Assembly: GCF_016861785.1 (NCBI RefSeq)
Contig: NZ_BOLS01000005.1
Location: 1-64,000 of the forward strand
Source: Lacticaseibacillus mingshuiensis
Lineage (GTDB): Bacteria > Bacillota > Bacilli > Lactobacillales > Lactobacillaceae
Length of the DNA: 64,000 bases
Direction: 5' to 3'
Under the pieces are notes generated by a model. It saw nothing but the letters and a program-made list of their open reading frames with translations, ran no database searches and was not told the DNA's origin. How positions within the stretch are numbered: position 1 is the stretch's first letter; the number at the start of each line of letters is the position of its first letter. This document shows, piece by piece, positions 11,288-25,918 of the stretch. The translations under genes were made by a program, and so were the position numbers.

Positions 11288-11295
11288 GAATAGCG
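11274..11295. other. attL at the 3' end of tRNA-Lys
   Basis: The 17-bp word CCCCTGACCACCCAGAA (11274-11290) recurs at 34564-34580, the right end of island 2. Overlapping it, AGAATAGCG (11287-11295) recurs at 25910-25918, proposed as the right end of island 1. The tRNA stays intact. Confidence 0.8.
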
Positions 11296-11388
11296 TTATC
11301 AACCAGTAGCAAACGTTGTCAAAACAGCGTCGTTACTGGTTTTTATTTTTTCTTGAGTGTCACTGGTTGTTATAGATTATCAATAAAA

Positions 11389-11411
11389 GAAAACCACGAG
11401 AAAACCACGAG
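11389..11411. repeat. Arm-type direct repeats, left end of island 1
   Basis: GAAAACCACGAG occurs twice, overlapping by one base. The same GAAAACCAC word occurs twice at 25802-25822, just after integrase 1. Both pairs lie about 85-95 bases inside the proposed core sites, as integrase arm sites would. Confidence 0.6.
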
Positions 11412-11435
11412 ATTCATTCTGCTAGGCAGGCGGTG

Positions 11436-11464
11436 GCCACTTCAATATGAGGTGGCTATTTTTT
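11436..11464 (+). terminator. Terminator at the island 1 left end
   Basis: GCCACTT pairs with AGGTGGC, followed by TATTTTTT. It would stop transcription entering the island from the tRNA side before mscL. Confidence 0.65.
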
Positions 11465-11529
11465 GCTTTCAGAAAATCGGGCTGTCTGCTATAATATGGT
11501 GCGTTTCACACTTTATGGAGGCGAACAAA

Positions 11530-11898
11530 ATGATTAAAGAGTTTCGTGACTTTATTATGCGTGGTAATGTTCTGGATCTGGCTGTTGGTGTCATTATTGG
11601 CGGCGCGTTCACCGCTGTTGTTACTTCCCTTACCAAAAACTTAATCAACCCAATTATTTCTATGTTTGTAGGTAAGGCCGACTTAAGTAAGCTATATTTC
11701 ACAATTTTGAACGCAAAATTTACGTATGGTAGCTTTCTCAACGACGTCATTAACTTCTTGATTACTGCTTTTGTTGTCTTTCTTATCGTCAAGGCGGTAA
11801 ACAAAATTATGCCACCAAAGAAGTCCGATTTGCCTGTTGTGTCAAAAGAGGAACTTTTGCTCACTCAAATTCGCGACTTGTTACGTGAACAGCATTAG
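11530..11898 (+). CDS. mscL: Large-conductance mechanosensitive channel
   Basis: A 122-residue MscL, normal in length. The N-terminal helix and first membrane segment read [20 protein letters not shown]; the second segment is [19 protein letters not shown], and the tail is charged. In the cell membrane it opens under high tension to release solutes during osmotic downshock. ATGGAGG lies upstream, and a TATAAT box is at 11490-11495. It is odd to find it here: it lies inside island 1, between the arm repeats and the late phage genes, and is AT-rich, so it is probably cargo rather than the housekeeping copy. Confidence 0.95.
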
Positions 11899-12006
11899 TC
11901 CGGGCGGCTGGTCTGATGCGGCTGAGGTTTTTTTCTTTTGTTTTTTTCATTGAACCTGTACACTTATAATTAGTAACATAGTCTATCTTTTATAGGAGGG
12001 ATTTAT

Positions 12007-12255
12007 ATGCACTTCATTTGGTCACTAATTGTTGGCGCAATAATCGGCGCTATTGCAGGTGCGATTACAAGCAAGGGCAAGTCTATGGGCTGGATTGCAA
12101 ATATTGTTGCTGGCCTTGTCGGTTCCTCTTTAGGGGAAGCACTCCTTGGGCACTGGGGTCCTCAGTTGGCCGGAATGGCCATAATTCCATCGATAGTCGG
12201 AGCAGTTATTATTGTCGCTGTTGTATCTTTCTTTGTTGGCAGATCTAAAGACTGA
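12007..12255 (+). CDS. GlsB/YeaQ/YmgE-family small membrane protein
   Basis: An 82-residue protein with three hydrophobic stretches rich in Gly and Ala (VGAIIGAIAGAI, then NIVAGLVGSSLGEALLG and GAVIIVAVVSFFVG). This is the transglycosylase-associated protein family, whose role in stress or envelope maintenance is not well defined. TAGGAGG is seven bases before the ATG. It follows mscL in the same direction and precedes another tiny membrane gene by 14 bases. The three may form an envelope-stress cargo operon of the island. Confidence 0.85.
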   Translation: MHFIWSLIVGAIIGAIAGAITSKGKSMGWIANIVAGLVGSSLGEALLGHWGPQLAGMAIIPSIVGAVIIVAVVSFFVGRSKD

Positions 12256-12269
12256 CGGGAGGTCGGACT

Positions 12270-12410
12270 ATGGACGCATTAAAATCGGTTTTTAAGTTCA
12301 TGGTAGCAAGCACTTTTCTTGTTGGTGGTGTCTTGGTAGCTGGTACAATTTGGGCAGCTAAGGGGATCGACAAGGCTGGAGATAAATTGCAAGATTCGAT
12401 TCACGATTGA
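12270..12410 (+). CDS. Small single-span membrane protein
   Basis: A 46-residue frame with a GGGAGG ribosome site, one hydrophobic segment (FMVASTFLVGGVLVAG) and a charged tail (KGIDKAGDKLQDSIHD). It starts 14 bases after the GlsB-like gene and is followed by a terminator. The function is not recognised. It resembles short proteins found beside GlsB-type genes in lactobacilli, but that is an impression, not a match. Confidence 0.65.
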   Translation: MDALKSVFKFMVASTFLVGGVLVAGTIWAAKGIDKAGDKLQDSIHD

Positions 12411-12421
12411 TAGGTGTTCTG

Positions 12422-12906: not shown

Positions 12907-13200
12907 CTATACGTCTGCTGCGAACAAGCCACGTAGCTGCTGGATCATGCTGACCACTGAATACGGTGGTTCTTGACTCGCCGTGCTGACCTCACCCCGG
13001 TTTTGATACCAGAATTCGGTCATCATCGCCACGGCGACGTCGAACTGTGAATATTCTTCCAGCTTGGCAATGTCTGCGGTGCTGTCTACCGCATTGTGGA
13101 CGTAGTCTTGAGCGGCTGTAATGTAGTTTTGAATGAGTGTGTCATCAGTATCAGTCTGCACACGCAGGCTATTTTTAATGTTATCAGTAGTGACAGTCAT
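12907..13200 (-). CDS. Phage head-tail connector protein (gp6-like)
   Basis: A 97-residue protein opening with a DNA-packaging connector pattern (VTTDNIKNSLRVQTDTDDTLIQNYITAAQDYV), typical of HK97 gp6-type connectors that sit under the portal and close the filled head. AGGAGATGAG precedes the ATG. It lies 58 bases after the capsid gene and is the last gene of the packaging operon. No tail gene follows, which is central to reading the region as a satellite rather than a phage. Confidence 0.85.
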   Translation of the reverse strand: MTVTTDNIKNSLRVQTDTDDTLIQNYITAAQDYVHNAVDSTADIAKLEEYSQFDVAVAMMTEFWYQNRGEVSTASQEPPYSVVSMIQQLRGLFAADV

Positions 13201-13258: not shown

Positions 13259-14800
13259 TTAAGCTGCTGGCTTGGTTACCGGTGTGATGTCAACAATTCG
13301 AGCAGCGTCTGGATCAACCACTTCATAGTCGTTGCGAATGACCACGGCCAGCCCTTGGCTGTAGCTGTCGAACCGTTCCCACTGGGTGTTGACCTCGTTC
13401 TTCTGGGCTAAGAAAATTGCTTGAGAAAAGTCTCCGATGATGATCCGATAGGTGCCCGCCTTATCAGTCGGCAATACTTTGTTAGCAATCACGATCACCG
13501 GTGCACCGAACAGCTGCTTGCCAGATGGTGCCGTGATAGAGGGTTGAAGCAGGTAGCGACCTTCGCTGTCCTTGAGGGTGTCAAGGTAGTTGTAGGCGTC
13601 CTGATTAACGATCACAGACAGGGACAGCGCCGGGTCCAGTTCGATGTTGAACGTCTGCTTGATGTCGTCTAAGCCGGTACCGGTGATGTGCTTGAAGTTA
13701 TCGTTGGTGCCCGTCTTGCCAGTCAGAACGCTGATAATGTTGCTATTGTCCGTGTTTTGTACCAGCTTCTTGAGTTGATTCTTAACCTCGGCAACAATAT
13801 CAACTTCACTGTCTTCTACCAGTTCATTAGACAGATAGATCTTGCCAGCACGGGTCGCGACTTTGTAATCGACACCGCGGAACAGGGTTGCACCGATCTC
13901 TGGCACGTCGGCGAGTTCTTCCTTGGTGGCCAGTACGCCGTTGTTGGTGAGGGCAATCGGGTAGGTGCCGACTGGGGTACCAACTTGCTTTACCGTCACG
14001 TATTTAGCCAAGTCATAGTCGGATTCCTTGAGGTTCCAGACGTCTTCGATGACTTCTTTAGGAACGACTGTACCAGCAGTGGTTGTCGTTAATCCGTCAC
14101 GTTGTTCGCCCATGCTACGGATGTAATCTTCATACGCGCGGGACTCGGTGTGTTCTTCATTATCAATAATGGTTTTTTCAGTCATGGTTTTATCTCCTTT
14201 TTCTGGTTGTTCAGTATTAGTTTTCAGCCACTCGGTGTAGCTGCGTTTGTCCACTTGGACGTTGGTATCGTCATACGCTGGAATAGCTACCAGTGAGACG
14301 TCAAACAGGCTCTTGACTTGCTTGATGGTACGGATCACTTGGCCACTGTCGTCCTTAGTGAACGTGTCACCATCGGGTGCTGCGTTGAAAGTGAAGCTCA
14401 TGGCTGACAGGTTTCCAGCTTGGACGTTCGTGTACGCATCGTTGGCGGTGGTGGTGTCGGGGAGAGTAGCTTCAAAGTGAAGTCCCTTGTCGTCTACGTC
14501 AAGTTGTAGGGTGCCGGCTTTAGTGCTGGCGAGGACCTTGCTAAAATCGTGATCAGATACCAGATAGACGTCTGACAGATCCACGCCATCGAAGGCACTA
14601 GGATCGACGACTTCCTTAAAGCCACCTAGATCCTTGCTTGGACTATTGAAGACTACGGCATAGCCGGTGAGCTTCTTGGGTGTATCATTTGGTGCGGTGC
14701 TTGGATCCTTTTGGTCTTGGCTGTCGTCTGCTGTGGTAGGATCAGCGGCAGTTAGATCAGCGTCAGGATTCAGGCGCTTTTCTACGTCATCATTGTTCAT
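13259..14800 (-). CDS. Fused prohead protease and HK97-type major capsid protein
   Basis: A 513-residue protein joining two functions. Residues about 45-195 form the HK97 prohead protease (LTGYAVVFNSPSKDLGG, then the histidine in LVSDHDFSKVL and the serine in NLSAMSFTFNAAP). A linker at about 200-250 is Lys- and Glu-rich and could act as the scaffold (delta) region. Residues about 250-510 are the capsid fold (TTTAGTVVPKEVIEDVW, then QPSITAPSGKQLFGAPVIV). ATG at 14800 with GGAAG upstream is chosen; it overlaps the portal end by 11 bases. In most phages these are separate genes. Confidence 0.9.
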   Translation of the reverse strand: MNNDDVEKRLNPDADLTAADPTTADDSQDQKDPSTAPNDTPKKLTGYAVVFNSPSKDLGGFKEVVDPSAFDGVDLSDVYLVSDHDFSKVLASTKAGTLQLDVDDKGLHFEATLPDTTTANDAYTNVQAGNLSAMSFTFNAAPDGDTFTKDDSGQVIRTIKQVKSLFDVSLVAIPAYDDTNVQVDKRSYTEWLKTNTEQPEKGDKTMTEKTIIDNEEHTESRAYEDYIRSMGEQRDGLTTTTAGTVVPKEVIEDVWNLKESDYDLAKYVTVKQVGTPVGTYPIALTNNGVLATKEELADVPEIGATLFRGVDYKVATRAGKIYLSNELVEDSEVDIVAEVKNQLKKLVQNTDNSNIISVLTGKTGTNDNFKHITGTGLDDIKQTFNIELDPALSLSVIVNQDAYNYLDTLKDSEGRYLLQPSITAPSGKQLFGAPVIVIANKVLPTDKAGTYRIIIGDFSQAIFLAQKNEVNTQWERFDSYSQGLAVVIRNDYEVVDPDAARIVDITPVTKPAA

Positions 14801-15968
14801 TTGACGCACTTCCTTTCTGTTTATCTTGATAAGTGACAAGGTTGCTTAGCGGCGTATAGTTCAGGCTGGCCATGATCTCATCACCACCTGGAATTGGGGG
14901 TAAGTTTAACTTAGCACGTGCTTCATTGGTGGTCAGCAGTCCGCCTTGCAGCCCCTTAATGGCTAGTTCTTGCATCGTCGTGGGGTCAGCACTGAACAGC
15001 TTGTCTGTGTTGAAACTGAATCGATTATCGCCAGTTGAAAGCTTAGCGTCCATCTCACTTGTGAAGCAGGTAAAATACTGAATCAACGTGTTTTGCAGAT
15101 AGACTAGGTTTGATTGCACGGCGTTAGAGTGCTCGCTCTCAATACCTAATCGATCTAGTGGTAAGCCGAACGCTTTGGCAATCTGTTTCGTTGTCCAATC
15201 GCTAGAATTGACTAGATTCAGCACGTCAGTATTAACTTCGAGTTGCTTGTAGTCCATATCATTGTCGAGAATGATGGTCTTGAGGGCATTGTCACCGCTG
15301 TTAGCAGCCTCAAACTTCGATCGGATATTCTCCTTGGCCTTGGCATCGAGCTGTGACTTGTTCACCTTGAGTATGCCAGTCCCTTGGACACCGGTATCGA
15401 AGAAGCCTTTGAGCAGCTTGTGCCCCGCATGTTGCACCCGAACTTCATCATGCAAGCTGTAAAGAGGCGATAGGCCCTTGTATCCGTCTTGTGTGAAGCA
15501 CTTGAAGTGCAATACCTCGCTGGCGCTTAAACGCTGTGAGCGGCCATTCTGGGGCGTATACGTGTAGCTGATAATGCCGGTCGTATCGTCTTGCTTGACC
15601 ACCATTTGGCTGTTTGGAACAAACTCGAAGCCGGTGACTTGTCCGCTTGGGTTCTTAGTAACGCGTGCGAAGCTATTGCCATTCAGTAGCATGTTGGCCA
15701 CTAGGGCAAACTTGAACGACCATGCTGTCATGTGATCGTTAGGGGCCTTGTTGAGTAACCCGCTGATACGCTTGTCATTGTATTCAATCGGGTTAGTCGC
15801 GAGGTCGCTGGCAATCACGCGCACCGCCGTAAATACGTCCGAGTTCCGCAAAGCATGGACGCCCACATAAACGCCGCTGTCGTTGCTCGTCATGCTGACA
15901 AGGGCATCTAGGAACGGTTCGCTGTTGTCATCGCGAGGTTGTGTTGTGTCATTCGTGAAAAAGCTCAT
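14790..15968 (-). CDS. Phage portal protein (HK97 family)
   Basis: A 392-residue portal, the usual size of short HK97-type portals. It forms the dodecameric ring through which DNA enters the head. Seen are VRVIASDLATNPIEY near residue 55, LLNGNSFARVTKNPSG near 95 and AFGLPLDRLGIESEHSNA near 265. GGGAGGTGA lies upstream, overlapping the stop of the small membrane-protein gene. It sits in the standard order TerL, portal, protease-capsid. Confidence 0.95.
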   Translation of the reverse strand: MSFFTNDTTQPRDDNSEPFLDALVSMTSNDSGVYVGVHALRNSDVFTAVRVIASDLATNPIEYNDKRISGLLNKAPNDHMTAWSFKFALVANMLLNGNSFARVTKNPSGQVTGFEFVPNSQMVVKQDDTTGIISYTYTPQNGRSQRLSASEVLHFKCFTQDGYKGLSPLYSLHDEVRVQHAGHKLLKGFFDTGVQGTGILKVNKSQLDAKAKENIRSKFEAANSGDNALKTIILDNDMDYKQLEVNTDVLNLVNSSDWTTKQIAKAFGLPLDRLGIESEHSNAVQSNLVYLQNTLIQYFTCFTSEMDAKLSTGDNRFSFNTDKLFSADPTTMQELAIKGLQGGLLTTNEARAKLNLPPIPGGDEIMASLNYTPLSNLVTYQDKQKGSASNEQ

Positions 15969-15972: not shown

Positions 15973-16134
15973 TCACCTCCCTTTGTTGAAGTTGATGATG
16001 ACTGCGATGGAGATCAGGGCTGCGCCGATTGCTACCATGCCAACGCCACACCCGAACAGCCACCAGATACCAGTGACGATACAGATCAGTCCTAGCAGTA
16101 ATAGCACGGTCTGTGCGTTAAAAGCTGAAGTCAT
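15973..16134 (-). CDS. Small phage membrane protein between TerL and portal
   Basis: A 53-residue frame overlapping the TerL end by 17 bases and ending within the portal ribosome site. It has two hydrophobic segments (VLLLLGLICIVTGIWWLFG and VAIGAALISIAVIINF). The tight overlaps on both sides argue that it is a real gene translated by coupling. Short membrane proteins at this place occur in other lactobacillus phage head operons. The function is unknown. It might help helper-phage exclusion or lysis timing, which is only a guess. Confidence 0.65.
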   Translation of the reverse strand: MTSAFNAQTVLLLLGLICIVTGIWWLFGCGVGMVAIGAALISIAVIINFNKGR

Positions 16135-17821
16135 CGCCCGAATAAAAGTCATTGTCCGCTACCTCGCTTTCTTTGTTTTGGTCCATGGCAATGGTGTAAG
16201 CATTCATCAAAGCCGCTATGGGATCGATCCGTGTCGCATTGTGCGCCTTGTCGATGATCGGGTTGTTGTTGGCGTCATACTTTAGAATGGCGTTGTTCAC
16301 CGCATAGGCTAGTAGTTGGTTGCCGGCATGCTTGAGTAGGCCGTTAAAGAGATCATCACGGAACCGCACAGTCGGTATTGACAGTGTGCGCTGGCCTTGG
16401 CGTACCTCAACCATTGGTAAGTCTCGTTTCTCAAATTCTGGCAGTAGGTAGCCGAACGACCACGGATCGTAACAGATGGCGCGCACACTCCAGTGGTTCC
16501 GCTCGATCATGTCGAGAATGAAGCGTAGCACCTCGTCATAGTCGATCATGCCGCTGTCGAGTTTGGTAATGCTACACTCGCCGCGACTGGCGCCACTGAT
16601 GTAATCGAACCCGTCACGTTTGATTTTCTCTTCCAGTCCGTACTTCGTCCCCACGAATGAATGGCTGTCAGCATACAGGTAGCCATCTTCTGGAACTAGC
16701 CATGAGATGCTGGTCAGGTCGCTAGACTTGGAAAGGTCCAGCCCGATATACACGTCTTTTCCTTTGGTGTCTGGCGGCTCGATAGTAGCTTTCTCCCAGT
16801 CGTCCAGACTGATGTAGCTGTCTGCTCTAGCTGATTGCCACATGTTGAAATTCTTGACGAGGATCGGTCGCAATGTTCCTTGCTTGGCTGACAGGTCCAC
16901 GTCTGCTTGCAGGCTAGGCCGCATTGTCCTTGCTCTTTCAGCATTAGCCAGTAGTGGATTGGACTTCTCCCAAGTCTCTGGTGAAAAGGCTTCGTCTTTG
17001 CTATCCTGCTCAAAAATGGCAATAAAATACCGATCAGCTTGTTCGCGACCGGTTAAGATTTTGGAAACGAATTTGTATTCCTTATACATAGGGCCATTCA
17101 GGTCTGGCCCCGTGGTCGAGATGACGGCTAGTAAACTGTTATCACTGTTGATCTGGCCAGATTTGAGTGTTCGTAGAATCTCATCGGTACGAGCTAAGGC
17201 GAATTCATCAATAATAGCCAAGTCACTTTGATAGCCATCTAGGCTGTGCAGATCAGACGCAAGCGGCACGGCTCGGCTGTTGCTCGGCAAGTCGATGATC
17301 TCGTTGCGGTTGATCTTCAAACGTTCTCTCACAGAGGTAGAAACTTTCCAAACTTGACGTAAGCCGCTAGACAACATATCGAATGCTAAGTGTGCTTGGG
17401 CGTTGCTGTTGGCCGTATAAACGATTTCTCGGTTCATGGCGGGCTTGTTCTCCATGAGGAGATACAACGCACCTAGATCAGCCATCAGGAAGCTCTTACC
17501 ATTCTTGCGTGCCATGCTAATGTAGGCTCGATCATACCGGCGGTTGCCAGTTTCCTTATCACGCCAGCCGAACAGCTCTGAAATCAACCACTTCTGAAAC
17601 AGCTCTAACTTGAGTGGTGACCCATCACGTGCCGGCATCAGTTCGATGAATTCAATGGCTTTGTTGGCAAAGTCCTCATCGAAGTAATACGGCCATGGGT
17701 TCTTCTTGCGCTTGCTGGCTTTTAGGTCTCGCCGATAACGTCTTGCAGCTTGCTTGATTTTCTTTCCGGCCACAATGTCGCCGCTTATTACCTTGTCGGT
17801 ATATTCAGTCGCATAGTTCAT
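16118..17821 (-). CDS. terL: Phage terminase large subunit
   Basis: A 567-residue packaging motor. The ATPase half has Walker A at SMARKNGKSFL (about residue 105) and Walker B at LAIIDEFAL (about 205). The nuclease half has YIGLDLSKSSDLTS (about 355) and a late aspartate in RIDPIAALMNAY (about 535). It cuts concatemers and pumps DNA into the prohead at the portal. It overlaps the TerS stop by four bases. This HK97-type, cos-associated terminase together with HNH fits cos packaging. Confidence 0.96.
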   Translation of the reverse strand: MNYATEYTDKVISGDIVAGKKIKQAARRYRRDLKASKRKKNPWPYYFDEDFANKAIEFIELMPARDGSPLKLELFQKWLISELFGWRDKETGNRRYDRAYISMARKNGKSFLMADLGALYLLMENKPAMNREIVYTANSNAQAHLAFDMLSSGLRQVWKVSTSVRERLKINRNEIIDLPSNSRAVPLASDLHSLDGYQSDLAIIDEFALARTDEILRTLKSGQINSDNSLLAVISTTGPDLNGPMYKEYKFVSKILTGREQADRYFIAIFEQDSKDEAFSPETWEKSNPLLANAERARTMRPSLQADVDLSAKQGTLRPILVKNFNMWQSARADSYISLDDWEKATIEPPDTKGKDVYIGLDLSKSSDLTSISWLVPEDGYLYADSHSFVGTKYGLEEKIKRDGFDYISGASRGECSITKLDSGMIDYDEVLRFILDMIERNHWSVRAICYDPWSFGYLLPEFEKRDLPMVEVRQGQRTLSIPTVRFRDDLFNGLLKHAGNQLLAYAVNNAILKYDANNNPIIDKAHNATRIDPIAALMNAYTIAMDQNKESEVADNDFYSGDDFSF

Positions 17822-18288
17822 TGGGCTATCAACTCCGCGAACGGGTCGTCAGGCTTCTTCTTAGTCTCGCTCTTCACTGCTAACTTAGCCCGGCTGTAGA
17901 CGGATAGACCCAGCAAGTCATCGATGCGGATCATCTGGTTCGTGGCATCTAGCTTCATCTTCACGGCCGGATTGGCTTTCACGCTATCAGTGGTTTCAAC
18001 CGTCATGCCTTGCTCTTTTACAAGCTCGGCAGCTTTCTGAATGTCAGAATAGGCTTGGCAGTGACTGGCAATCAGGGCAGCGTCCAGTTCGCTCACTGGA
18101 ATGTCTTTCTTGAGTAACGGCACAATACGTTGCCACTCGGTCACGGCATAGTCATCAAGCCATGCAGGGGGCTGCTCAACTAATTCTTGATAGGTAAATA
18201 ATGATTCTTCCATGTCGCGCCGATCGGCGAGCTTCTTCTTGCTCATCGTGCCACGCATTTGGGTAATGGATTTAAGCGGTGCGCCCAT
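17818..18288 (-). CDS. terS: Phage terminase small subunit (P27 family)
   Basis: A 156-residue protein with the P27 pattern: GAPLKSI at the start, then LDDYAVTEWQRIVPLL, and SELDAALIASHCQAYSDIQKA followed by VKANPAVKMKLDATNQM. It recognises the packaging site and guides TerL. AAAGGAC precedes the ATG. A separate promoter (18337-18345) drives it, apart from the HNH gene upstream. In satellites this subunit decides whose DNA is packaged. Confidence 0.9.
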   Translation of the reverse strand: MGAPLKSITQMRGTMSKKKLADRRDMEESLFTYQELVEQPPAWLDDYAVTEWQRIVPLLKKDIPVSELDAALIASHCQAYSDIQKAAELVKEQGMTVETTDSVKANPAVKMKLDATNQMIRIDDLLGLSVYSRAKLAVKSETKKKPDDPFAELIAQ

Positions 18289-18389: not shown

Positions 18390-18827
18390 TCAATGGTTAA
18401 TCTGGGATGCTTGGTCCCCGTGATTACATGACCTAGCCCCCATAACTAGATGGGGATAGTGTGCGGCGTCTTCGACTTTCGTCTTCACGCCATGGCAAGT
18501 GTTGCACAAGCTTTGTAGGTTGCTCTCGTCGAAGCGTCGGCTCCAGTCTACACGTATCGGTACAATATGATCTACGACGTCAGCTTGCACGTATAAGCCG
18601 TTGGCCTTGCATCGTTCACACAGCGGATGTGCTAGGCGATAGGAATACGACAGCTTGCGCCATGACTTGGACTTGTAGAATTGGAAGTAGCGACCACCGA
18701 TCTCTTTGCGGTGTGCATAGCGTTCGTTGTCGGACGCTCGCGGTTCTGGCTGGTGCTTGTCACAGTACCGTTGATTGAACGGCACCATGGTGTTGCACCC
18801 AGCGTGGTTACATAGCTTCATGATCAT
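18390..18827 (-). CDS. Phage HNH endonuclease
   Basis: A 145-residue HNH protein. Two CxxC-like pairs (LCERCK and LCNTCH) enclose the HNH core VDHIVPIR with the partner asparagine in ESNLQSLCNTCHG. An N-terminal zinc-knuckle-like Cys set (CNHAGCN, RYCDKH) is also seen. In HK97-type and cf-PICI packaging modules HNH proteins work with terminase during cos cleavage. ATG overlaps the previous stop as ATGA. It is followed by a gap and a new promoter before terS. Confidence 0.92.
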   Translation of the reverse strand: MIMKLCNHAGCNTMVPFNQRYCDKHQPEPRASDNERYAHRKEIGGRYFQFYKSKSWRKLSYSYRLAHPLCERCKANGLYVQADVVDHIVPIRVDWSRRFDESNLQSLCNTCHGVKTKVEDAAHYPHLVMGARSCNHGDQASQINH

Positions 18828-19021
18828 GCCAATACGCCTGCTTGTTGCTGGTCGACATAGTAGACGCTGACTACTAGCTTGTGGTGTTCCATTTCTAGAA
18901 GTTTATTTGCTGGCTCCTGATATACCTGAATGCTTTTGACCTCTACCGAATGAATCGCAAAGAATGCTGTCAGCATGCGGTTGACCTCTTTCTCTGTTCC
19001 TGCTGCTTCAAGTTCTTTCAT
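18824..19021 (-). CDS. Small phage protein of unknown function
   Basis: A 65-residue acidic and hydrophobic protein (LTAFFAIHSVEVKSIQVY, then HHKLVVSVYYVDQQQ) with AAAGGAG upstream. It ends in an ATGA overlap with the HNH gene and starts five bases after the adaptor gene. The pattern of alternating beta-type residues suggests a small beta fold. No family is recognised. Confidence 0.7.
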   Translation of the reverse strand: MKELEAAGTEKEVNRMLTAFFAIHSVEVKSIQVYQEPANKLLEMEHHKLVVSVYYVDQQQAGVLA

Positions 19022-19025: not shown

Positions 19026-19361
19026 CTAAGCTCCTTTGGTTGTCTTCTTGAGCGTCACAATATCAAACGCGTTCGGATCATCGTCATAGGCAATAGACTT
19101 AATTGTGTACAGTGTGCTGTTCAGCTTTATCATCATGCTGTCGTCTAGCGCGTCAGTGTGACGTACCACGATGGCGATGGTGTCCTCTAAGTCTGTGCCA
19201 GTGATCTGGTAGGTCTGTGTCACAGTGCGGTTATATGAGCCATAGAACAGGGTTCCAGTCGGCTCAAATGTAGAGATGTTAATACCTGCACCAGTCCTGC
19301 GACTAACTGTCTTACCAATTTCAGCCACCTTATTCAGGCGGGCAATTGAGTAGTTCTTCAT
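19026..19361 (-). CDS. Phage head closure / head-tail adaptor protein
   Basis: A 111-residue protein of the head-tail joining type (gpFII/SPP1 gp16-like): FEPTGTLFYGSYNRTVTQ, then DTIAIVVRHTDALDDSM and NSTLYTIKSIAYDDDP, the beta-rich pattern of these rings. ATG at 19361 is chosen because AGGAGG lies seven bases upstream; a longer frame lacks an RBS. It lies upstream of HNH and TerS, which is unusual, since in phages it normally follows the capsid gene. This placement is seen in capsid-forming satellites. Confidence 0.8.
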   Translation of the reverse strand: MKNYSIARLNKVAEIGKTVSRRTGAGINISTFEPTGTLFYGSYNRTVTQTYQITGTDLEDTIAIVVRHTDALDDSMMIKLNSTLYTIKSIAYDDDPNAFDIVTLKKTTKGA

Positions 19362-19362
19362 G

Positions 19363-19527
19363 CTAATCCTCCTTGTCGAGTTCGCCCAATACCGTAACCA
19401 CCCACTCATTATTGAGGTACTGAACACTAACATGTGTTGCGTGATATGGCGTTGGCATGTCCTGATGTGCATCGTCAACTAACTGCTTCAAGCTCTGACC
19501 GTGAAATACTTCCCATACTGTGTCCAT
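19363..19527 (-). CDS. Small phage protein of unknown function
   Basis: A 54-residue protein (MDTVWEVFHGQSLKQLVDD, then HVSVQYLNNEWVVTVLGEL) with GGAAG upstream. It ends one base before the adaptor start, so the two are coupled. It is the first gene of the morphogenesis block, directly after the iteron region. No family is recognised. Confidence 0.65.
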   Translation of the reverse strand: MDTVWEVFHGQSLKQLVDDAHQDMPTPYHATHVSVQYLNNEWVVTVLGELDKED

Positions 19528-19546
19528 ATTGTTTTCTTCCTTTCGT

Positions 19547-19831
19547 GTTCCAGATTTTCTGGAACGGTGTTCCAAGTTTGTTCCAGAAAATTATTGCTGT
19601 ATCCCTTGTGGCTCTAGTGTTGTTCCAGATGTTCCAGAAAATAATCGATTTTCTGAGATTTATTTTCCTAGAGGTCTATTCTTTGATACAAACCTCCAGT
19701 GTTTTAAATTAAGAAAAATCGCAAAATTTCTGGAACTTCTGGAACAAGGGCTTCTTATCCGCGCAGCTAAGGCATTTGTGTGTTCCAAAAACGATTTATT
19801 TTCTGGAACAGTGTTCCAAAAAAACTGGAAC
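19547..19831. other. Candidate replication origin of the satellite (iterons)
   Basis: Twelve copies of GTTCCA or its complement TGGAAC lie in 285 bases. Six are at 19547-19636 and six at 19731-19831, flanking an AT-rich core (19637-19730). Many sit in the longer word TTCTGGAAC. The region has no gene and directly follows the helicase gene. SaPI origins have the same plan: short repeats on both sides of an AT-rich zone beside the replication gene. Confidence 0.7.
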
Positions 19832-19840
19832 AATGGCCGA

Positions 19841-21436
19841 CTACTCGTTAAATTGGTCATTTATAAGCGAGCCCGTTAGACGCAAGCCAATGAATCGCTG
19901 AACATTTCCACCGTCGTTGTTATAGCCTCTTCGACTCCGATCTTTATAAACATTGTAAGTAGCAAGTTTTTTCACGATGGCTTGTGTGCTCGTTTTATCA
20001 GTGTAGTTGTTCATTTGACAAAAGCGCTTATATTCAGCTGTTACAACAGTGGTTGCTTCACCGCGATCATCTTTTGTATCGATAGTGGCGTATTCGTCTA
20101 GGAACTCTTTGAAGTGGTCGTTTGCGTCCAGCCACTCTTGGCTTGCGTTTACTACCGAATCAGGTTTTGTCAGGCCACCGCTTTTAAGCGCCTTGGCAAA
20201 CATGTGCATGCACTTCATGGCAAAACGTGGTGTTTCTTCGTTCATTTTGGTGTCGTCGAACTGATCCCACCAGTGTGTGTGCCGGGTGTCGCCGTTGATC
20301 ATCTTGATAACGATGACACGATCAGCGAACCCGGTGCTGTGGTCGCTGAATGCTGGCATCTCGTTAGCGCTGAATAGTAGCTTGGCATAGTTCATAAACT
20401 TAAAGTTCTGAATGCCTTTGAACTCGGCCGGTATATAGTCGCCACCAGTTAGGGACTTGATCGCGGCTGTACTCTTGAGGTAGTCTGTGCCAACGTCGGC
20501 CACGATGTTTGCTTCTTTGCCGTATAGATTGGCTGTTTCAAAACGACGGTCACCATTGGCAAGGTCTGCTGGTTTTGATGCTGACACATTGTCACGCCCG
20601 ATGAGGTTAGTAATTCTGCGAATAAGTGTGCTTTTGCCTTCACCGCCGGTACCATACAACCATAGGAATGCTTGGAATGGACGGTAAGACCGGTAGAACA
20701 TATAACCGATGAATTCCTCAAAGGTGACGGCGGCATCGCCCATCATAGCTGCAAGCAGTCGTTCAGTCTCTGGACAATCGTCCCTATCTGGATCGACCGC
20801 GTACTCATGGGCGTTCAGCATGTAATTGTCAGCACTACTTTCCTGCATCTTATTGGTCAGTATGCTATATGTGCCATTGGCGAACGCAACCAGTTCTGGA
20901 TGTGGGTTCTCATCAAATGGTGATCGCTTACCATAGTCCTCGTTGTAGCTGATGCGTTGCAAGAATCGTCTGGCGCCTGTAATATCACTCTCACGATACA
21001 GCCCCCATTTGAGCATCTCTTTAGTGGTTCTGCTCTCGGTGGTCTTAGTGAACTCACCCTTGCCAAATGTGCGCCACGTCCCTTTGCTAGGCTCATATAT
21101 CGCACCCTCGCTCAACCCGGGGAAACTCTCTACTCGTGTTTTATCCATGAAGTGGTAGCCGTAGGTGAGAAAGTCCACCTTGATATTCCGATGAATGGTT
21201 ACGTTTTGGGGATCGTCTTCATCGCGCTGCTCGGCTTGAAACCAAACTCTTAACCAGTTCGGTAACTTGGCAGCAAGCTGTTTGTTATATGCCCGAATAC
21301 CTTTCTCGGTCTTATCTTGAGGCTCTGGATACTTGTTCACGTCAAATGGTTCTAATGAGCTTTTAGAGATCACCTTGAGCCGGTTAAACTCTGGCGACTT
21401 GTTTAGTTCTTCCTTTAAGCTGTCCGTATGCTTCAC
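19841..21436 (-). CDS. Phage/satellite replication helicase (D5/P4 type)
   Basis: A 531-residue SF3-type helicase. The D5_N region is at about 130-280, and the Walker A is LYGTGGEGKSTLIRR near residue 265, followed by DVGTDYLK (Walker B region) and motif C near LLFSANEMPAF. A winged-helix tail follows. It unwinds DNA at the element's origin. It starts at GTG three bases after the primase stop, with no strong RBS, so translation is probably coupled. The primase half is in the neighbouring gene. Confidence 0.92.
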   Translation of the reverse strand: MKHTDSLKEELNKSPEFNRLKVISKSSLEPFDVNKYPEPQDKTEKGIRAYNKQLAAKLPNWLRVWFQAEQRDEDDPQNVTIHRNIKVDFLTYGYHFMDKTRVESFPGLSEGAIYEPSKGTWRTFGKGEFTKTTESRTTKEMLKWGLYRESDITGARRFLQRISYNEDYGKRSPFDENPHPELVAFANGTYSILTNKMQESSADNYMLNAHEYAVDPDRDDCPETERLLAAMMGDAAVTFEEFIGYMFYRSYRPFQAFLWLYGTGGEGKSTLIRRITNLIGRDNVSASKPADLANGDRRFETANLYGKEANIVADVGTDYLKSTAAIKSLTGGDYIPAEFKGIQNFKFMNYAKLLFSANEMPAFSDHSTGFADRVIVIKMINGDTRHTHWWDQFDDTKMNEETPRFAMKCMHMFAKALKSGGLTKPDSVVNASQEWLDANDHFKEFLDEYATIDTKDDRGEATTVVTAEYKRFCQMNNYTDKTSTQAIVKKLATYNVYKDRSRRGYNNDGGNVQRFIGLRLTGSLINDQFNE

Positions 21437-21439: not shown

Positions 21440-22252
21440 CTAACTGCGGCGCGCAATTTCGCGCTTACTAATTGACTTGATGATCTTAACTAGCTCGCCA
21501 TTAGGCAAGGGAGGGCGAACATAGCGCTGGTTGATAGTTTGAACTAGATCCGCGCAGCTATCAGGGTCAGCGCCCGACCGAAAGACTGAACCGGCAATGC
21601 TGGCCAACCACTGATTTCGGTTTCCTTCGTCTGAACCATCTACAAGTCGATTGATGAAGTTGCCAAACCATGAATCAGGATCAGTGCGGTATGATCCGAC
21701 AACGGGTCCTCTATATCGGTTAATCTCGTCTAGCAGCCACTGTGGAGCAGGGGCAACCGTGGTCAGCTTGTGGCCTTTTAGTGGTTTATACATGCCGCTG
21801 TCTCGCATGCTGGGATAGACGGGCACGCCCAGCGCCGTGTAATCGAGACCGGTTTTCTCTCCGGACTTGGAGAACAGATCGGCCCGACTGGTTAGCTTCA
21901 ATTCCTTGGGATAGGTGAAGAACATATGAAGTCCACCGTTTGGGGTAGTTTCAATATAGGTAGACGGTATCTGGCTAGCGCGCCCATCAGCGCTTAGTCT
22001 TTTCAGCGATTCATTGCCATCAGCGGCACTCTTGTGTCCCATGTCAATGTCGAATACCAGCATGCCGTCAAGTCTTAGGCCGATATTGTAGTCAGGGTGT
22101 TCACCCCACCATGCCTCGGCTTGCTTAGGGTCTTTGGTAGCGTCCTTATACCCGTGTGAGCCTTTGAGCGGCGTTCTGGTGCCTGGTGCTAGAGGATAGA
22201 CGGCAAAGCCGTGTTGCTGGTACGAGAGGGCCATCTCAAGCATTGTCGGCAT
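21440..22252 (-). CDS. Bifunctional DNA primase/polymerase (Prim-Pol)
   Basis: A 270-residue protein with the AEP-type Prim-Pol domain: GFAVYPLAPGTRTPLKG at about 16, NIGLRLDGMLVFDIDMGH with the catalytic DxD near 75, and ETTPNGGLHMFF with the histidine near 115. The C-terminal part is helical (primase-C1-like, ending RREIARRS). ATG at 22252 is chosen because GGCGG lies about eight bases upstream. It makes primers for the helicase encoded next. Together they give the island its own replication. Confidence 0.92.
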   Translation of the reverse strand: MPTMLEMALSYQQHGFAVYPLAPGTRTPLKGSHGYKDATKDPKQAEAWWGEHPDYNIGLRLDGMLVFDIDMGHKSAADGNESLKRLSADGRASQIPSTYIETTPNGGLHMFFTYPKELKLTSRADLFSKSGEKTGLDYTALGVPVYPSMRDSGMYKPLKGHKLTTVAPAPQWLLDEINRYRGPVVGSYRTDPDSWFGNFINRLVDGSDEGNRNQWLASIAGSVFRSGADPDSCADLVQTINQRYVRPPLPNGELVKIIKSISKREIARRS

Positions 22253-22424
22253 CGGGATCACCGCCTTCCATCAAAATGCGCCGGGCATCGATGACTTTAT
22301 TGGCGGTGGCATCGGTCAATGCTTCTAACGGCTTGTCTTCAAGCTCTCTTCCTAGAATGATGAGTAGATAACTAGCCTCTCTAAGCAAGTCTTGAGCTGC
22401 TTCAATGTCTGGTTGCGTCATCAT
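22236..22424 (-). CDS. Small early protein of unknown function
   Basis: A 62-residue acidic helical protein (IEAAQDLLREASYLLIILG, then LEALTDATANKVIDARRIL). It overlaps the preceding gene as ATGATG over TGA and overlaps the primase start by 17 bases, so it belongs to the early operon. No family is recognised. Confidence 0.65.
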   Translation of the reverse strand: MMTQPDIEAAQDLLREASYLLIILGRELEDKPLEALTDATANKVIDARRILMEGGDPDADNA

Positions 22425-22717
22425 GCGTTCGCCTCCTCATCAGCTTCTGGAGGGTCAATAGCGGTAATCTGGTCGGTAATAATATCTCGAGCACAAAAGA
22501 TTAGATATTTCCACGTGTCAAAGTCACGCGAAGCAGCACAAGCTACCCATACTGCATTGTCGTGCGAGTGATCGTCATCGAACCGGCAAACCAAGTTGCC
22601 GAACTCATCTAGCTCATCGCAAAGGGCGAGCAAGGATCCTTTTGCCTTGCGCAATTCATACAACGTATCGCTCAAATCTAACGGATTCTTAACAGCAGTT
22701 GAAACATTCTTCATCAT
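22421..22717 (-). CDS. Early protein of unknown function
   Basis: A 98-residue protein (LDLSDTLYELRKAKGSLLAL, then WVACAASRDFDTWKYLIFCARDI) with an acidic end. GGAGG lies before two adjacent ATGs (22717, 22714). It ends inside the start of the next gene. It is helical and mostly acidic. Similar short proteins sit between the excision and replication genes of PICIs, with roles mostly unknown. Confidence 0.65.
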   Translation of the reverse strand: MMKNVSTAVKNPLDLSDTLYELRKAKGSLLALCDELDEFGNLVCRFDDDHSHDNAVWVACAASRDFDTWKYLIFCARDIITDQITAIDPPEADEEANA

Positions 22718-22762
22718 AATTGCCTCCATTTTTCTTGACAAAAGCATCTAACTAGAGGCAAG

Positions 22763-22954
22763 CTAAAAGTCGATATAGATCTTTTCGCTTGTCTTCTTCT
22801 CGCCTTGAGCTGCAACTCTTGGCGATTTTTTTGTGGCTTCAATCAGTGAGCGCTTTTCGGCTTTTTGCGCTTGCCAGTACCGATCACACTCGGCATCGGC
22901 TTGCACGTAGTCTCGCCACTGAAATCCGAACCTTGTGCTAACCATTTTTGGCAT
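22763..22954 (-). CDS. Small basic early protein
   Basis: A 63-residue Lys-rich protein (FGFQWRDYVQADAECDRYW, then KAEKRSLIEATKKSPRVAA). GGAGGAC lies about nine bases before ATG 22954. It overlaps the end of the small membrane gene upstream. Base content is AT-rich. The function is unknown. Confidence 0.6.
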   Translation of the reverse strand: MPKMVSTRFGFQWRDYVQADAECDRYWQAQKAEKRSLIEATKKSPRVAAQGEKKTSEKIYIDF

Positions 22955-23072
22955 GACGATCGTCCTCCGAGAATTGAACGTAAGCACCGCAGACGGCCCC
23001 GATCAGGAACGCCATGCAGAGTGCTGGGACGGTGAGCGGGTGGCTTAGTAGCCACGCAATGATATTAATCAT
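22938..23072 (-). CDS. Small membrane protein
   Basis: A 44-residue frame with GAGGAGGA as ribosome site and a long hydrophobic stretch (IIAWLLSHPLTVPALCMAF, then LIGAVCGAYV). It overlaps the previous stop by eight bases and runs into the next gene. The overlaps and the strong RBS support it. The function is unknown. Confidence 0.6.
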   Translation of the reverse strand: MINIIAWLLSHPLTVPALCMAFLIGAVCGAYVQFSEDDRHAKNG

Positions 23073-23286
23073 CAGCGTCCTCCTCGTTTTCATACAGCTT
23101 TAGGATCTCCGATACCCGCAGCAGCTCTTTTGCAGCCGTGATTGCCAGCTCACTGTTGAAAATGTCCTTGCCATCAACCGTGACAGTACTGCCTTCTGTA
23201 ATGGCCAGAATGTTGAGGTTAATGTCGTCCATCAAGTCTCCGAGTTCGCGGTCTAGTGCCATCTCTTCTTTACTGAATAGCTTCAT
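23065..23286 (-). CDS. Small acidic early protein
   Basis: A 73-residue protein (SKEEMALDRELGDLMDDINL, then ITAAKELLRVSEILKLYEN) ending EEDADD. AAAGGC precedes the ATG. It is the second gene of the early leftward operon. No family is recognised. Confidence 0.65.
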   Translation of the reverse strand: MKLFSKEEMALDRELGDLMDDINLNILAITEGSTVTVDGKDIFNSELAITAAKELLRVSEILKLYENEEDADD

Positions 23287-23351: not shown

Positions 23352-23630
23352 TTAAACGGTCTTGCTTTCCATGAACTTCTCCAAGTCCACACGCTTAATG
23401 CGCTTGGCTGTGCCAATAAGGTTCACATGAATCATGCCTTCCTTGATATACTTGGCCAGCGTCCCGCGGCTCACGTTCAAATAATTGGCGCTGTCGCCAA
23501 GATTTAAATAATCGGGAACTCGCGGGGTAGCTTGTTGGCTTTGGATCATACCGGCAACTTCCTCATGAACCATGTTGCGAAGCTCTGATTTAAGTTCCGG
23601 CGTCATGGTCAAATTTGCTTGCACTTGCAT
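23352..23630 (-). CDS. Helix-turn-helix protein (excisionase-like)
   Basis: A 92-residue protein whose C-terminal half is a MerR/AlpA-type HTH (YLNLGDSANYLNVSRGTLAKYI, then IGTAKRIKRVDLEKFM). The N-terminal half is helical. This is the fold of excisionases and of PICI regulators such as AlpA. ATG at 23630 is chosen over GTG 23639, since AGGAAG would overlap the latter. It is the first gene of the early operon, transcribed from the promoter divergent from the repressor, where PICI early activators or Xis genes sit. Confidence 0.8.
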   Translation of the reverse strand: MQVQANLTMTPELKSELRNMVHEEVAGMIQSQQATPRVPDYLNLGDSANYLNVSRGTLAKYIKEGMIHVNLIGTAKRIKRVDLEKFMESKTV

Positions 23631-23707
23631 TACTGCCACTTCCTTTCACGGTTTAAATGCCCAACGCTTTAAAATATTCAGCTTTCAATGTGCATTTAAC
23701 AATTAGG

Positions 23708-23779: not shown

Positions 23780-23794
23780 CACAGGAGGCTCGAT

Positions 23795-24415
23795 ATGCTT
23801 GCAAACCGGCTTAATATATTACTAGCAGAACGCGACTTAAACGTTAAAACTGTCAGCCATGATACTGGCCTATCAAGAAACACAATTTCAAATCTTATTA
23901 ATAATCCTGAAGGAAATATTTCCACAGAAACAACTGATATACTATGCAATTACCTATCAGTTACACCAACAGATTTTTTTGATTACGCGCCTGTTCGCTT
24001 AGCAATTAATGGCGCTTCACCCGATGACAGCGACGAGGTTGCTGTTGTGATCTCGGCTAAATCAGGCCGCCGCTTGCAAACTTACTCGTATAGTTTATGG
24101 ATTGAGTCGGCAAGTGAAATTGATAAAAGTGAAGACTATCGTTCTGAGCCGGTTGACTTGTTTGCGTTGTTGCTTACTGCCACCGAATTTAAGACACAAA
24201 TATTTGACCTACTATCAATTAGTTTTCAAAATCGCATCGTGAATCGAATGAAGGATATAGGCGAATCGCATCTGTTATCTGTGTTACCCTCACATGTTGA
24301 AAAATTTTTGAATACGCAACCGGTAGTAATTGCTTTTTCAATTGGTATAGATGATGCAACCAGATATGACTACACTCTTAGGTACGATCCCCAGCGCCAA
24401 ATTCTCGAAGACTAG
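23795..24415 (+). CDS. Island master repressor (XRE HTH, Stl/CI-like)
   Basis: A 206-residue protein. Residues 1-65 are a XRE helix-turn-helix (LNILLAERDLNVKTVSHDTG, then SRNTISNLINNPEG). The remaining 140 residues have no peptidase motif, so it is not a LexA-type self-cleaving repressor. In PICIs such repressors (Stl) are lifted by binding a helper-phage protein. AGGAGGC precedes the ATG. It stands between divergent promoters and keeps the early block silent. The inducer cannot be told. Confidence 0.82.
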   Translation: MLANRLNILLAERDLNVKTVSHDTGLSRNTISNLINNPEGNISTETTDILCNYLSVTPTDFFDYAPVRLAINGASPDDSDEVAVVISAKSGRRLQTYSYSLWIESASEIDKSEDYRSEPVDLFALLLTATEFKTQIFDLLSISFQNRIVNRMKDIGESHLLSVLPSHVEKFLNTQPVVIAFSIGIDDATRYDYTLRYDPQRQILED

Positions 24416-24443
24416 TTTTCACTGCCGACTTTTCAGCTACGAC

Positions 24444-24475
24444 AAAAAGAGGTGTACCCAAAATTGGGCATACCC
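24444..24475. terminator. Hairpin between repressor and integrase
   Basis: GGTGTACCCAA pairs with TTGGGCATACC with two mismatches. A five-base A-run lies on its left, so the U-run is on the minus strand. It may separate the repressor and integrase transcripts. The rest of the 24416-24639 gap shows no gene. Confidence 0.4.
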
Positions 24476-24639
24476 ATTCATTACATAGCGTCGCGTTGAA
24501 CGGCGTCTTATGGGTCTGCGAGGTTTTGCGCGCACCCTGTCTTATGCCCCACGTCAGGGGCGCCAACTACCGCGGAATTTTCCGCTGTACTCTCCAATCT
24601 AACACCGCCTGCCCAGCGTGACGGATAGGAGAAAACGAT

Positions 24640-25797
24640 ATGGCATCAATTAAAAAGTACGCAACGAAAGACGGCAAAGAGTTCTGGCGCGTTCAGGTCT
24701 TTGCTGGTAATGATCCACAGACTGGCCACAAGAAGTACAAGGTGCGGCGAGGGTTCAAGACAAAAAGAGAAGCCACTGTTGCAGCAGCTAGACTTGAACT
24801 AGCAATCAGCAACGGTGACTTAGAAGAAGAAAAACCAACACCCGTGTTCTTTCGGGATGTATATGAGGAGTGGTATGGAAACTATATTAATACGGTAAGA
24901 GAATCTACGTGGGCCCGAACGGCTGGCATGTTTGACAACCATATTCTACCAGCCTTTGGCGATAAGCGGATCGCCACTATAACCACTAAGGACGTTCAGA
25001 AGGCTGTCAAACAGTGGTTCGAGTTCACGTCAGCGAACTACAAGCGTTGGTATAACTATGCTTCATCGGTTATGGACTATGCAGTTCGACAAGGGTACAT
25101 GGACAAGAATCCAGCCAAGGCCGTTGTTCTACCGCACCATGATGATCTGGCGGGTGATGAGCCTGAGAACTTCTGGACTAAGGAACAGATGAATCATTTC
25201 TTTTCTTGCATTGACCAAGCAGCTCACTTCGACATTTTCATCATGTTTAGGGTATTAGCCTATACCGGTGTTCGACGTGGTGAGTTACTAGCGTTGACTT
25301 GGCACGATGTCAGTTTCAAAGACAACAGCGTGAAGATCAACAAGACACTGACACAAGGCGATAAGGGACGACAGATCGTTCAGGCGCCAAAGACGCGAGC
25401 GGGGCGGCGTACCATTCCGGTAGACAACCAAACGATTGCGTACTTGAAGCGATGGCGCAGAATTCAGCAGAAATCGTTCTTAAGACTGGGCATCAATACT
25501 ATTGGTCCTGACCAGTTGTTGTTCACCAATACTAAAAACGGTTATCAGTCATTGAACACGCCCTCAAAGCGTCTGCATAAAATTCAAGATGATAATGACC
25601 TCACCCCAAGGATCACTATCCACGGGTTTCGGCACAGTTTTATATCAAACTTGTTGATTGCCGGCGTTCCTGTCACTTCGGTACAGAAGTTGGTCGGGCA
25701 CACTGATCCGACTATTACGCTTGGCGTGTATGCTCATGTCAGCGCGAAACAAGAATCGGAGGCCACTGCTGCACTTGCCAAATATATGCAAAATTGA
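24640..25797 (+). CDS. int: Tyrosine recombinase, integrase of island 1
   Basis: A 385-residue integrase. The N-terminal AP2-like arm-binding part is at 1-60 (SIKKYATKDGKEFWRVQV, then RRGFKTKREA), the SAM-like core-binding part at about 65-160 and the catalytic part at about 180-380. Catalytic residues are Arg in YTGVRRGELLAL, His-x-x-Arg in IHGFRHSFISNLL, His in VGHTDPT and Tyr in LGVYAH. TAGGAG lies upstream. It integrates at the tRNA-Lys 3' end. GAAAACCAC repeats just after the gene and near the left end are likely its arm sites. Confidence 0.95.
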   Translation: MASIKKYATKDGKEFWRVQVFAGNDPQTGHKKYKVRRGFKTKREATVAAARLELAISNGDLEEEKPTPVFFRDVYEEWYGNYINTVRESTWARTAGMFDNHILPAFGDKRIATITTKDVQKAVKQWFEFTSANYKRWYNYASSVMDYAVRQGYMDKNPAKAVVLPHHDDLAGDEPENFWTKEQMNHFFSCIDQAAHFDIFIMFRVLAYTGVRRGELLALTWHDVSFKDNSVKINKTLTQGDKGRQIVQAPKTRAGRRTIPVDNQTIAYLKRWRRIQQKSFLRLGINTIGPDQLLFTNTKNGYQSLNTPSKRLHKIQDDNDLTPRITIHGFRHSFISNLLIAGVPVTSVQKLVGHTDPTITLGVYAHVSAKQESEATAALAKYMQN

Positions 25798-25801
25798 ATT
25801 A

Positions 25802-25822
25802 GAAAACCACAGAGAAAACCAC
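25802..25822. repeat. Arm-type direct repeats, right end of island 1
   Basis: GAAAACCAC occurs at 25802-25810 and 25814-25822, the same word found in the pair at 11389-11411. The distance to the proposed core (25910) is about 88 bases, against about 93 on the left. Confidence 0.6.
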
Positions 25823-25870
25823 GGGAGTTTTAAGGCTGGTTGGTAACAGCTCTAGGCCGCATGGTTAAGG

Positions 25871-25886
25871 CGTTTCACGTGAAAAC
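25871..25886. other. parS-like palindrome at the island 1 right end
   Basis: CGTTTCACGTGAAAAC matches the ParB site TGTTTCACGTGAAACA at 13 of 16 bases and keeps the core TTTCACGTGAAA. It lies 24 bases inside the proposed core. A perfect copy is at the right end of island 2. Confidence 0.5.
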
Positions 25887-25909
25887 AAGTCCTCATATTG
25901 GTTGAGGCA

Positions 25910-25918
25910 AGAATAGCG
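25910..25918. other. Proposed junction between islands 1 and 2 (core AGAATAGCG)
   Basis: The nine bases equal 11287-11295 at the tRNA end. Arm repeats of integrase 1 lie at equal distance inside both copies, and those of integrase 2 lie about 58 bases to the right. A chance match this placed is unlikely, but the core is short. Confidence 0.5.

Follow-up and report, generated by a model that had tools for sequence, protein, structure and literature searches.

The tRNA-Lys gene in the first 64,000 nucleotides of contig NZ_BOLS01000005.1 of Lacticaseibacillus mingshuiensis (the whole stretch analyzed here, hereafter the window) is followed by a long run of phage-type genes, and the locus raises the question of what kind of mobile element has settled there and where it ends. 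An earlier reading of the letters (the sequence-only reading) had placed a single undisturbed island at 11288-25918 and had likened it to the capsid-forming phage-inducible chromosomal islands (cf-PICIs), reportedly described by Alqurainy et al. in 2023. Our analysis bore out the kind of element, changed its extent, and added three genes that had been missed, i.e., those for MscL, GlsB, and a protein of 46 amino acids (aa). We propose, at a probability of about 0.82, that positions 11273-34579 hold two nested integrative elements in the tRNA-Lys gene, an outer capsid-forming satellite and an inner defense-gene element (element B). The outer element (~14.64 kb) would use a Prim-Pol and a D5-type helicase of its own to replicate from an iteron origin, build its own HK97-type heads, and package its own DNA via its own terminase small and large subunits (TerS and TerL) and HNH protein, and for tails and lysis it would depend on a tailed helper phage. 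The inner element (~8.67 kb), with genes for HerA, SIR2, an MmeI-like restriction-modification (R-M) protein, a helix-turn-helix (HTH) regulator, and an integrase, has entered a parS-like palindrome in the right attachment arm of the outer one.

All satellite components named in the sequence-only reading (integrase, repressor, Prim-Pol, helicase, candidate origin, and the full head and packaging set) were recovered, the genes as open frames with phage-family matches. On the minus strand, reading down from 22261, the order is Prim-Pol primase-polymerase (21440..22261; PF09250, 7.4e-29), D5/DUF5906 replicative helicase-primase (19841..21436; phrog_864, 2.7e-116, and Pfam), Hc1 head closure protein (19026..19478; phrog_25, 3.3e-15; PF05521), a 65-aa small protein (18824..19021; no family match, 97% in loci L028, L137, and L140; L, G, and C numbers are our handles for loci, genomes, and contigs), HNH endonuclease (18390..18827; phrog_144, 1.4e-39; PF01844), TerS (17818..18288; phrog_83, 1.6e-42; PF05119), TerL (16118..17821; phrog_9, 1.3e-144), a 59-aa membrane protein (15973..16152; phrog_502, 4.5e-9; no Pfam match), portal protein (14790..15968; phrog_12, 1.3e-101), a fused head protease and HK97-type major capsid protein (13259..14839; phrog_2263, 5.8e-162), and the Ad1 head-tail adaptor (12907..13200; phrog_40, 9.9e-27; PF05135). 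The true start of Hc1 probably lies nearer 19361, as matches cover 111-115 residues. Since Hc1 precedes HNH and is distant from Ad1, the head genes depart from the plain phage order; the deposited relative pAF20 has Hc1 after Ad1. Upstream of Prim-Pol are six small or regulatory genes on the same strand, encoding small proteins at 22236..22424 (phrog_17913), 22421..22747 (phrog_15408), 22763..22987 (phrog_17564), 22938..23093 (51 aa, no PHROG match, conserved in relatives), and 23065..23286 (phrog_21261) and an HTH/excisionase-like regulator at 23352..23639 (phrog_15534 and phrog_66). The divergent Cro/CI-type repressor (23795..24415; PF13443, 7.9e-13) and the satellite integrase IntA (24640..25797; phrog_1, 9.1e-77, and Pfam) are on the plus strand, opposite to the replication and head genes.

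A repeat search revealed a candidate replication origin (19545..19835, no strand assigned) between Hc1 and the helicase, where the iterons TGTTCCA/TGGAACA occur in 10 copies in 19480-19840, versus 4 copies in the 40.7 kb of the window outside both elements. Over its last ~80 residues, the helicase is 90-100% identical in two relatives that share the window iterons and 66-73% identical in three whose iterons differ, as expected if the C-terminal part reads the origin. Three plus-strand cargo genes stand beside the tRNA, encoding the MscL mechanosensitive channel (11530..11898; PF01741, 1.8e-41), a GlsB/YeaQ-type membrane protein (12007..12255; PF04226, also in relatives), and the 46-aa small protein (12270..12410; conserved in relatives). 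MscL was also found in the deposited record R23.1 (L005) and in L022, L109, and L132, and GlsB and the 46-aa gene are present in all five deposited relative records, JB1P3 and the circular and plasmid records included. The three genes (11530-12410) belong inside the element, since GlsB and the 46-aa gene recur in the circular relatives and MscL in R23.1 as well.

As had been stated from the letters, no recognizable tail or lysis gene was present inside the window satellite by phage-family and Pfam matches. Classical PICIs and Staphylococcus aureus pathogenicity islands (SaPIs) have no capsid of their own and remodel or take helper capsids; the window satellite encodes its own. The cf-PICIs are defined, as relayed second-hand in the accessible part of PMC10690885, by their own capsid, head, and packaging genes and no tail genes. 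The window satellite shares with them its own capsid, protease, portal, connectors, TerS, TerL, HNH, integrase, and primase, and the lack of tail genes; it also has a chromosomal attachment site and a replication module of primase genes and candidate origin, and it has no recognized lysis genes. Judged by gene content, it is a member of the cf-PICI kind, for which the accessible part of PMC11389934 describes three capsid clades. It differs in Hc1 standing before HNH, in MscL, GlsB, and the 46-aa gene beside the tRNA, and in the second element within its attachment arm, and the nested arrangement makes the window copy a variant among cf-PICI-like satellites. According to the accessible part of PMC10690885, the MulchRoom and MiniFlayer satellites of Streptomyces phages depend on a helper and encode heads and packaging proteins of their own, as proposed here, but they carry no primase, have virulent helpers, and are not reported there to resemble PICIs.

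Several relatives are already in the literature or in databases. As described in the accessible part of PMC10219966, an L. rhamnosus culture was induced, and sequencing of its purified particles gave R23.1 (OP869847) at a coverage of 332.87, together with the 41.6-kb phage R23.9 at a coverage of 114.19; R23.1 was presented there as an unusual phage, its tail, holin, and lysin genes missing and GlsB and MscL present, in a text in whose accessible part the words satellite, PICI, and helper are absent. R23.1 has the plan of the window satellite, with TerL at 94%, capsid at 90%, and GlsB and MscL, and it differs in its integrase (36%), the lack of element B, and a head-closure gene after Ad1, the window Hc1 query finding no match in R23.1. 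The 15-kb "Prophage 3" of L. rhamnosus JB-1 was induced by mitomycin C and its DNA was DNase protected in filtrates, in an account whose accessible text does not speak of satellite, PICI, or helper phage (PMC8583084). JB1P3 (PV668529), which is probably this prophage, is like the window satellite in IntA (92%), TerL (94%), and the tRNA-Lys core in its attachment sequence and unlike it in having no element B, no MscL, an unmatched helicase, and an HNH at 46%. Of the same element type are pCF11 and pAF20, circular records 13.8 and 14.1 kb long that are filed as non-mobilizable plasmids, pCF11 with a different integrase (36%); the circular relative records span 13.8-14.5 kb. A satellite of this kind offers a plain reading for two published L. 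rhamnosus oddities, R23.1 and JB-1 Prophage 3, and since these relatives are already known to release protected DNA, helper dependence is testable in those harmless bacteria.

Whether a helper is needed at all is the point at which the best-surviving alternative enters, namely, that the element is a tail-less phage or gene-transfer particle able to spread on its own, e.g., by vesicle release, with no tailed helper. We consider this improbable. DNA of "Prophage 3" was present in vesicle preparations, according to the accessible part of PMC8583084, and Ad1 and Hc1, being connector proteins, are no proof of tail use; yet no lysis genes were recognized, R23.1 was co-sequenced with R23.9, a Junavirus, and Hc1 is kept under selection (Ka/Ks of 0.05-0.11 in four comparisons), which is most sensible if a tail is attached. 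Returning to the helper-dependent satellite, tail-bearing prophages in the same genome, which the sequence-only reading had suggested looking for, were indeed found, on contigs C1 and C6. Both have genes for a major tail protein, tape measure, Dit, and fiber; the C1 prophage has an endolysin and the C6 prophage a match to the R23.9 lysin. As judged from sequence, the gene content of the satellite, its attachment repeats, the insertion point, the relatives lacking recognized tail genes, and purifying selection are in place, and we infer helper-supplied tails and lysis.

To examine relatives, a capsid search was run against genome contigs (10 loci) and viral contigs (54 loci); with 13 further stretches, these made up 77 related loci, among them duplicates of a genome present in two collections (e.g., L130, L141, and L023), element halves (L021/L022 and L027/L109), and partial contigs. 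A scan with 34 tail, holin, and lysin queries (E<=1e-5) matched none of the 77 loci, contig edges and distant tail types limiting the scan, versus all 7 control tailed-phage loci, some of them through their own queries contained in them. The same plan without recognized tail genes recurred in Companilactobacillus and in relatives whose integrases differ. The lineage is widespread: cf-PICI-like satellites occur in several species of Lacticaseibacillus, and related ones in Companilactobacillus and one Limosilactobacillus metagenome-assembled genome (MAG). When TerL was compared with 50,697 phage records, 2,550 matched; two of them, the satellite records, reached 94%, and the remaining 2,548 stayed below 60% identity (best listed, ~43%). 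In the TerL tree, computed without L. zeae (stop), L. camelliae (split), and the Limosilactobacillus MAG (no long match), 14 satellites grouped apart from 7 phages with a branch support of 96/93. Ka/Ks fell within 0.03-0.13 in all measurable comparisons of capsid, portal, TerL, and helicase and within 0-0.08 for TerS; the large head genes are under purifying selection. One related record, pLRDM054 (L008, a 23.2-kb plasmid), carries several satellite genes in more than one copy, as a multimer or an assembly artifact.

These data bear on the notion that the element is a prophage whose tail and lysis genes disappeared by decay or deletion, which we regard as very unlikely. Its head genes are homologous to siphovirus ones, Hc1 is out of place, and a few relatives show stops or splits, but the plan with no recognized tail gene recurs with different integrases and in another genus, tail and lysis queries match 0/77 loci, the large head genes are under purifying selection, and relatives are released upon induction (R23.1, PMC10219966; "Prophage 3," PMC8583084; both as far as accessible). 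Decay is thus largely refuted, and a deletion derivative of a phage was rejected on the 0/77 count. The sequence-only preference for a cf-PICI-like satellite over a decayed prophage, against which it had named tail or lysis genes in related copies at the same site as the telling sign, came out well supported by the scan, in which none appeared, the TerL group, and the released relatives.

The extent of the satellite was then read from its attachment sites. ARAGORN placed the integration target, tRNA-Lys(ctt), at 11214..11288 on the plus strand, in agreement with the insertion site proposed earlier, and the core repeat TCCCCTGACCACCCAGA, equal to the tRNA 3′ end, lies at 11273..11289 (attL, plus strand). 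The tRNA 3′ end has one further copy in the window, the satellite attR core at 34563..34579 (plus strand), and none near 25918. The core TCCCCTGACCACCCAGA is common to L004, L007, L008, and the window. Of the boundaries given in the sequence-only reading, the left one held, as the circular records L007 and L008, with an integrase of the window type, join directly to the tRNA 3′ end; the right boundary, 25918, was rejected, since AGAATAGCG near 25910-25918 is not an attachment repeat and the true one is at 34563-34579. In the L007 and L008 circles and at both ends of the JB1P3 record, the attachment sequence reads ...GTTTCATGTAAAACAGTTACGTTTCCCCTGACCACCCAGAATAG...; in R23.1 and pCF11, both the integrase and the attachment sequence are different.

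The right arm revealed where the second element had entered. Putative arm-type repeats, each a pair of GAAAACCAC, were read in the letters at 11389..11408 (left, plus strand) and 25802..25822 (right, plus strand), and in circle L007 such repeats flank the core on both sides. IntA is 92-99% identical in the relatives with the tRNA-Lys core (L023, L028, L024, and L007). The three integrated ones (L023, L028, and L024) finish directly after IntA with GTTTCATGTGAAACAGTTACGTTTCCCCTGACCACCCAGAA, and the relatives' arms run through a GTTTCAYGTGAAAC-type palindrome and GTTACGTT to the core. The arm is unbroken in all four relatives compared; in the window, it is split at GTTTCAYGTGAAA, being interrupted at GTTTCACGTGAAA (25872-25884) and picking up again at 34540, and the right GAAAACCAC pair is now ~8.7 kb away from its core. 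The occupied interval is therefore 11273-34579, i.e., 23.3 kb made up of a satellite of ~14.64 kb and an insert of ~8.67 kb. Since element B parts the right arm from its core, excision by IntA is probably impaired in the window copy unless element B leaves first, and the nested island offers a natural example of a mobile element that probably locks another in place.

Comparison with the intact arms placed the left copy of GTTTCACGTGAAA at 25872..25884 and the right copy at 34540..34552 (both plus strand), the latter within a perfect palindrome, TGTTTCACGTGAAACA (34539-34554), and the entry point, GTTTCA(C/T)GTGAAA, is a parS-like palindrome in the satellite right attachment arm. Four genes of element B are on the minus strand, those for HerA (26071..27882; PADLOC HerA, 6.3e-76; PF01935), SIR2 (27833..29089; PADLOC SIR2, 2e-68; PF13289), an MmeI-like type IIG restriction-methyltransferase (29524..32289; PADLOC, E=0; Pfam MmeI domains), and an HTH regulator (32294..32860; PF01381, 4.1e-14). 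On the plus strand are a small, putatively excisionase-like open reading frame (ORF) (33094..33351), kept next to the IntB gene in L094 (91%) and L106 (40%), and the integrase IntB (33227..34462; PF00589, 6.3e-24; 98% in genome G001). The adjacent SIR2 and HerA genes constitute a SIR2-HerA defense pair, and the single MmeI-like nuclease-methyltransferase protein constitutes a type IIG R-M system; a relaxase, as expected of an integrative mobilizable element, was not found by Pfam in five of the six ORFs, the excisionase-like ORF lying outside the search. The right 5.4 kb of element B occurs elsewhere in G001 (97.6% DNA identity), in a match ending in the same palindrome, there TGTTTCATGTGAAAC; only the right end of this copy was seen, the left end, by eye, being lost beside a transposase-like reading. 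Satellites often carry defense cargo, and one pair of tRNA-derived repeats encloses the whole 23.3 kb, but a single satellite with the defense genes as ordinary cargo beside its integrase has hardly any standing left and is already contradicted, as element B has its own integrase and its own 13-bp bounding repeat, has its right part at an unrelated place in G001, and interrupts an arm that is whole in 4/4 relatives, and as MmeI, HerA, and SIR2 are absent from 77/77 satellite loci, many of them trimmed near their ends. Simple cargo was rejected on these grounds, and the single undisturbed island described earlier gives way to a satellite whose right arm is split by a second integrative element.

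Several observations weigh against the nested satellite and its helper. The head proteins of the C1 and C6 prophages are 26-49% identical to those of the satellite where matched, their tail proteins are ~28-44% identical to those of R23.9 where matched, and the R23.9 major tail protein has no match in the two prophages; no helper is identified because the genome's own prophages are distant in head proteins and their tails distant from those of R23.9. In the accessible part of PMC10219966, the authors also propose that contigs 23.1 and 23.9 may belong to one phage, against which speaks that R23.9 has a TerL, a portal, and a capsid of its own, which resemble those of PL-1 at 94-99.5%. JB1P3 is identified with "Prophage 3" by its name, strain, and size. 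No empty tRNA-Lys site retaining both chromosome flanks turned up; the nearest genome, G027 (95.5% DNA identity over prs), has the tRNA with no satellite there, and its right flank differs. The portal tree supported the satellite group weakly (73/60), and the trees took in only seven phages. Ad1 had Ka/Ks values of 0.06-0.54, with 0.54 and 0.17 for the two closest relatives, which show few changes, and the values were less clear for the 59-aa membrane protein (0-0.35) and Prim-Pol (0.08-0.25). Decay is seen in some relatives, as a stop in the L. zeae TerL and split satellite genes in L. camelliae, where prs is split as well and sequencing error is possible.

As the landing site of element B is parS-like, the relatives of IntB were surveyed for their own sites. 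The search gave 29 matches, and 26 right ends were examined, leaving aside IntB itself and the truncated L050 and L063. The right end is at TTCCCGGGAAAT, a Noc-site-like palindrome, in 19 of the 26 and at TTTCATGTGAAA in one, the 98% copy. In 11 longer stretches drawn from these, the palindrome stands at the right end in 11/11, and left ends were located in 8 (4 exact and 4 with one mismatch); those of the remaining 3 were not found by exact search, no mismatch search having been made for them. The site taken by an 11.8-kb element in G018 is empty in G012, where the palindrome is whole and the flanks match at 85.5% (left) and 88.6% (right); G023 has a weaker empty site (77% and 82%). ATTTCCCGGGAAAT occurs exactly in 22 of 30 genomes, and its reversed control in none of the 30; the window genome has four exact copies, a Noc gene just above the family cut-off (317.3 vs 315 bits), and also a ParB gene. 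By their consensus letters, we take ATTTCCCGGGAAAT to be the Noc site and TTTCAYGTGAAA to be parS. IntB, which uses the parS-like TTTCAYGTGAAA, is ~46% identical to the ATTTCCCGGGAAAT-using integrases.

Noc sites are palindromic, according to the accessible part of PMC4331003, and no paper linking Noc or parS sites to integration was among the literature matches listed. The relatives of IntB suggest that Noc- and ParB-site-like palindromes can act as attachment sites, and we lean toward the view that this branch of tyrosine integrases uses binding palindromes of Noc and ParB, proteins that organize the chromosome, as landing sites; given the parS-like site in the satellite attachment arm, the defense island would have landed in, and perhaps disabled, the satellite through a chromosome-segregation motif. 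Two points temper this view: six of the 26 relatives (L046, L048, L049, L056, L057, and L061) finish at other cores, and the parS-like half rests on only two insertions. Among the ORFs searched, the cargo of IntB-related elements comprises Rep_trans proteins, AlwI-type R-M, KwaB, an Na/H exchanger, and transposases. Integrative elements with the palindrome TTCCCGGGAA at their ends and cargo of these kinds were seen at L121, L117, L119, and L123 (G018, G017, G021, and G022, respectively). Parsing the window for parS-like palindromes gave 34539-34554 and 45270-45285, and the whole genome has six sites at <=1 mismatch.

A few further observations concern tRNA-Lys loci and repeats. In G016 (L101 and L199), the sequence of the satellite left end, GlsB and the 46-aa gene included, follows tRNA-Lys, but no other satellite gene was found in 20 kb; this locus is possibly a satellite remnant. 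Paired tRNA-Lys copies ~1 to 13 kb apart were noted in several genomes of the genus (L095, L096, L097, L098, and L110). A short repeat at 53-166 and 29174-29261 of the window, the second copy within element B, is shared with contig C22 (93% and 83%). Finally, a dispersed repeat of ~115-145 bp lies at 9839-9972, 47253-47375, 56317-56459, and 59333-59472 of the window, 75-84% like copies on C1 and C6.

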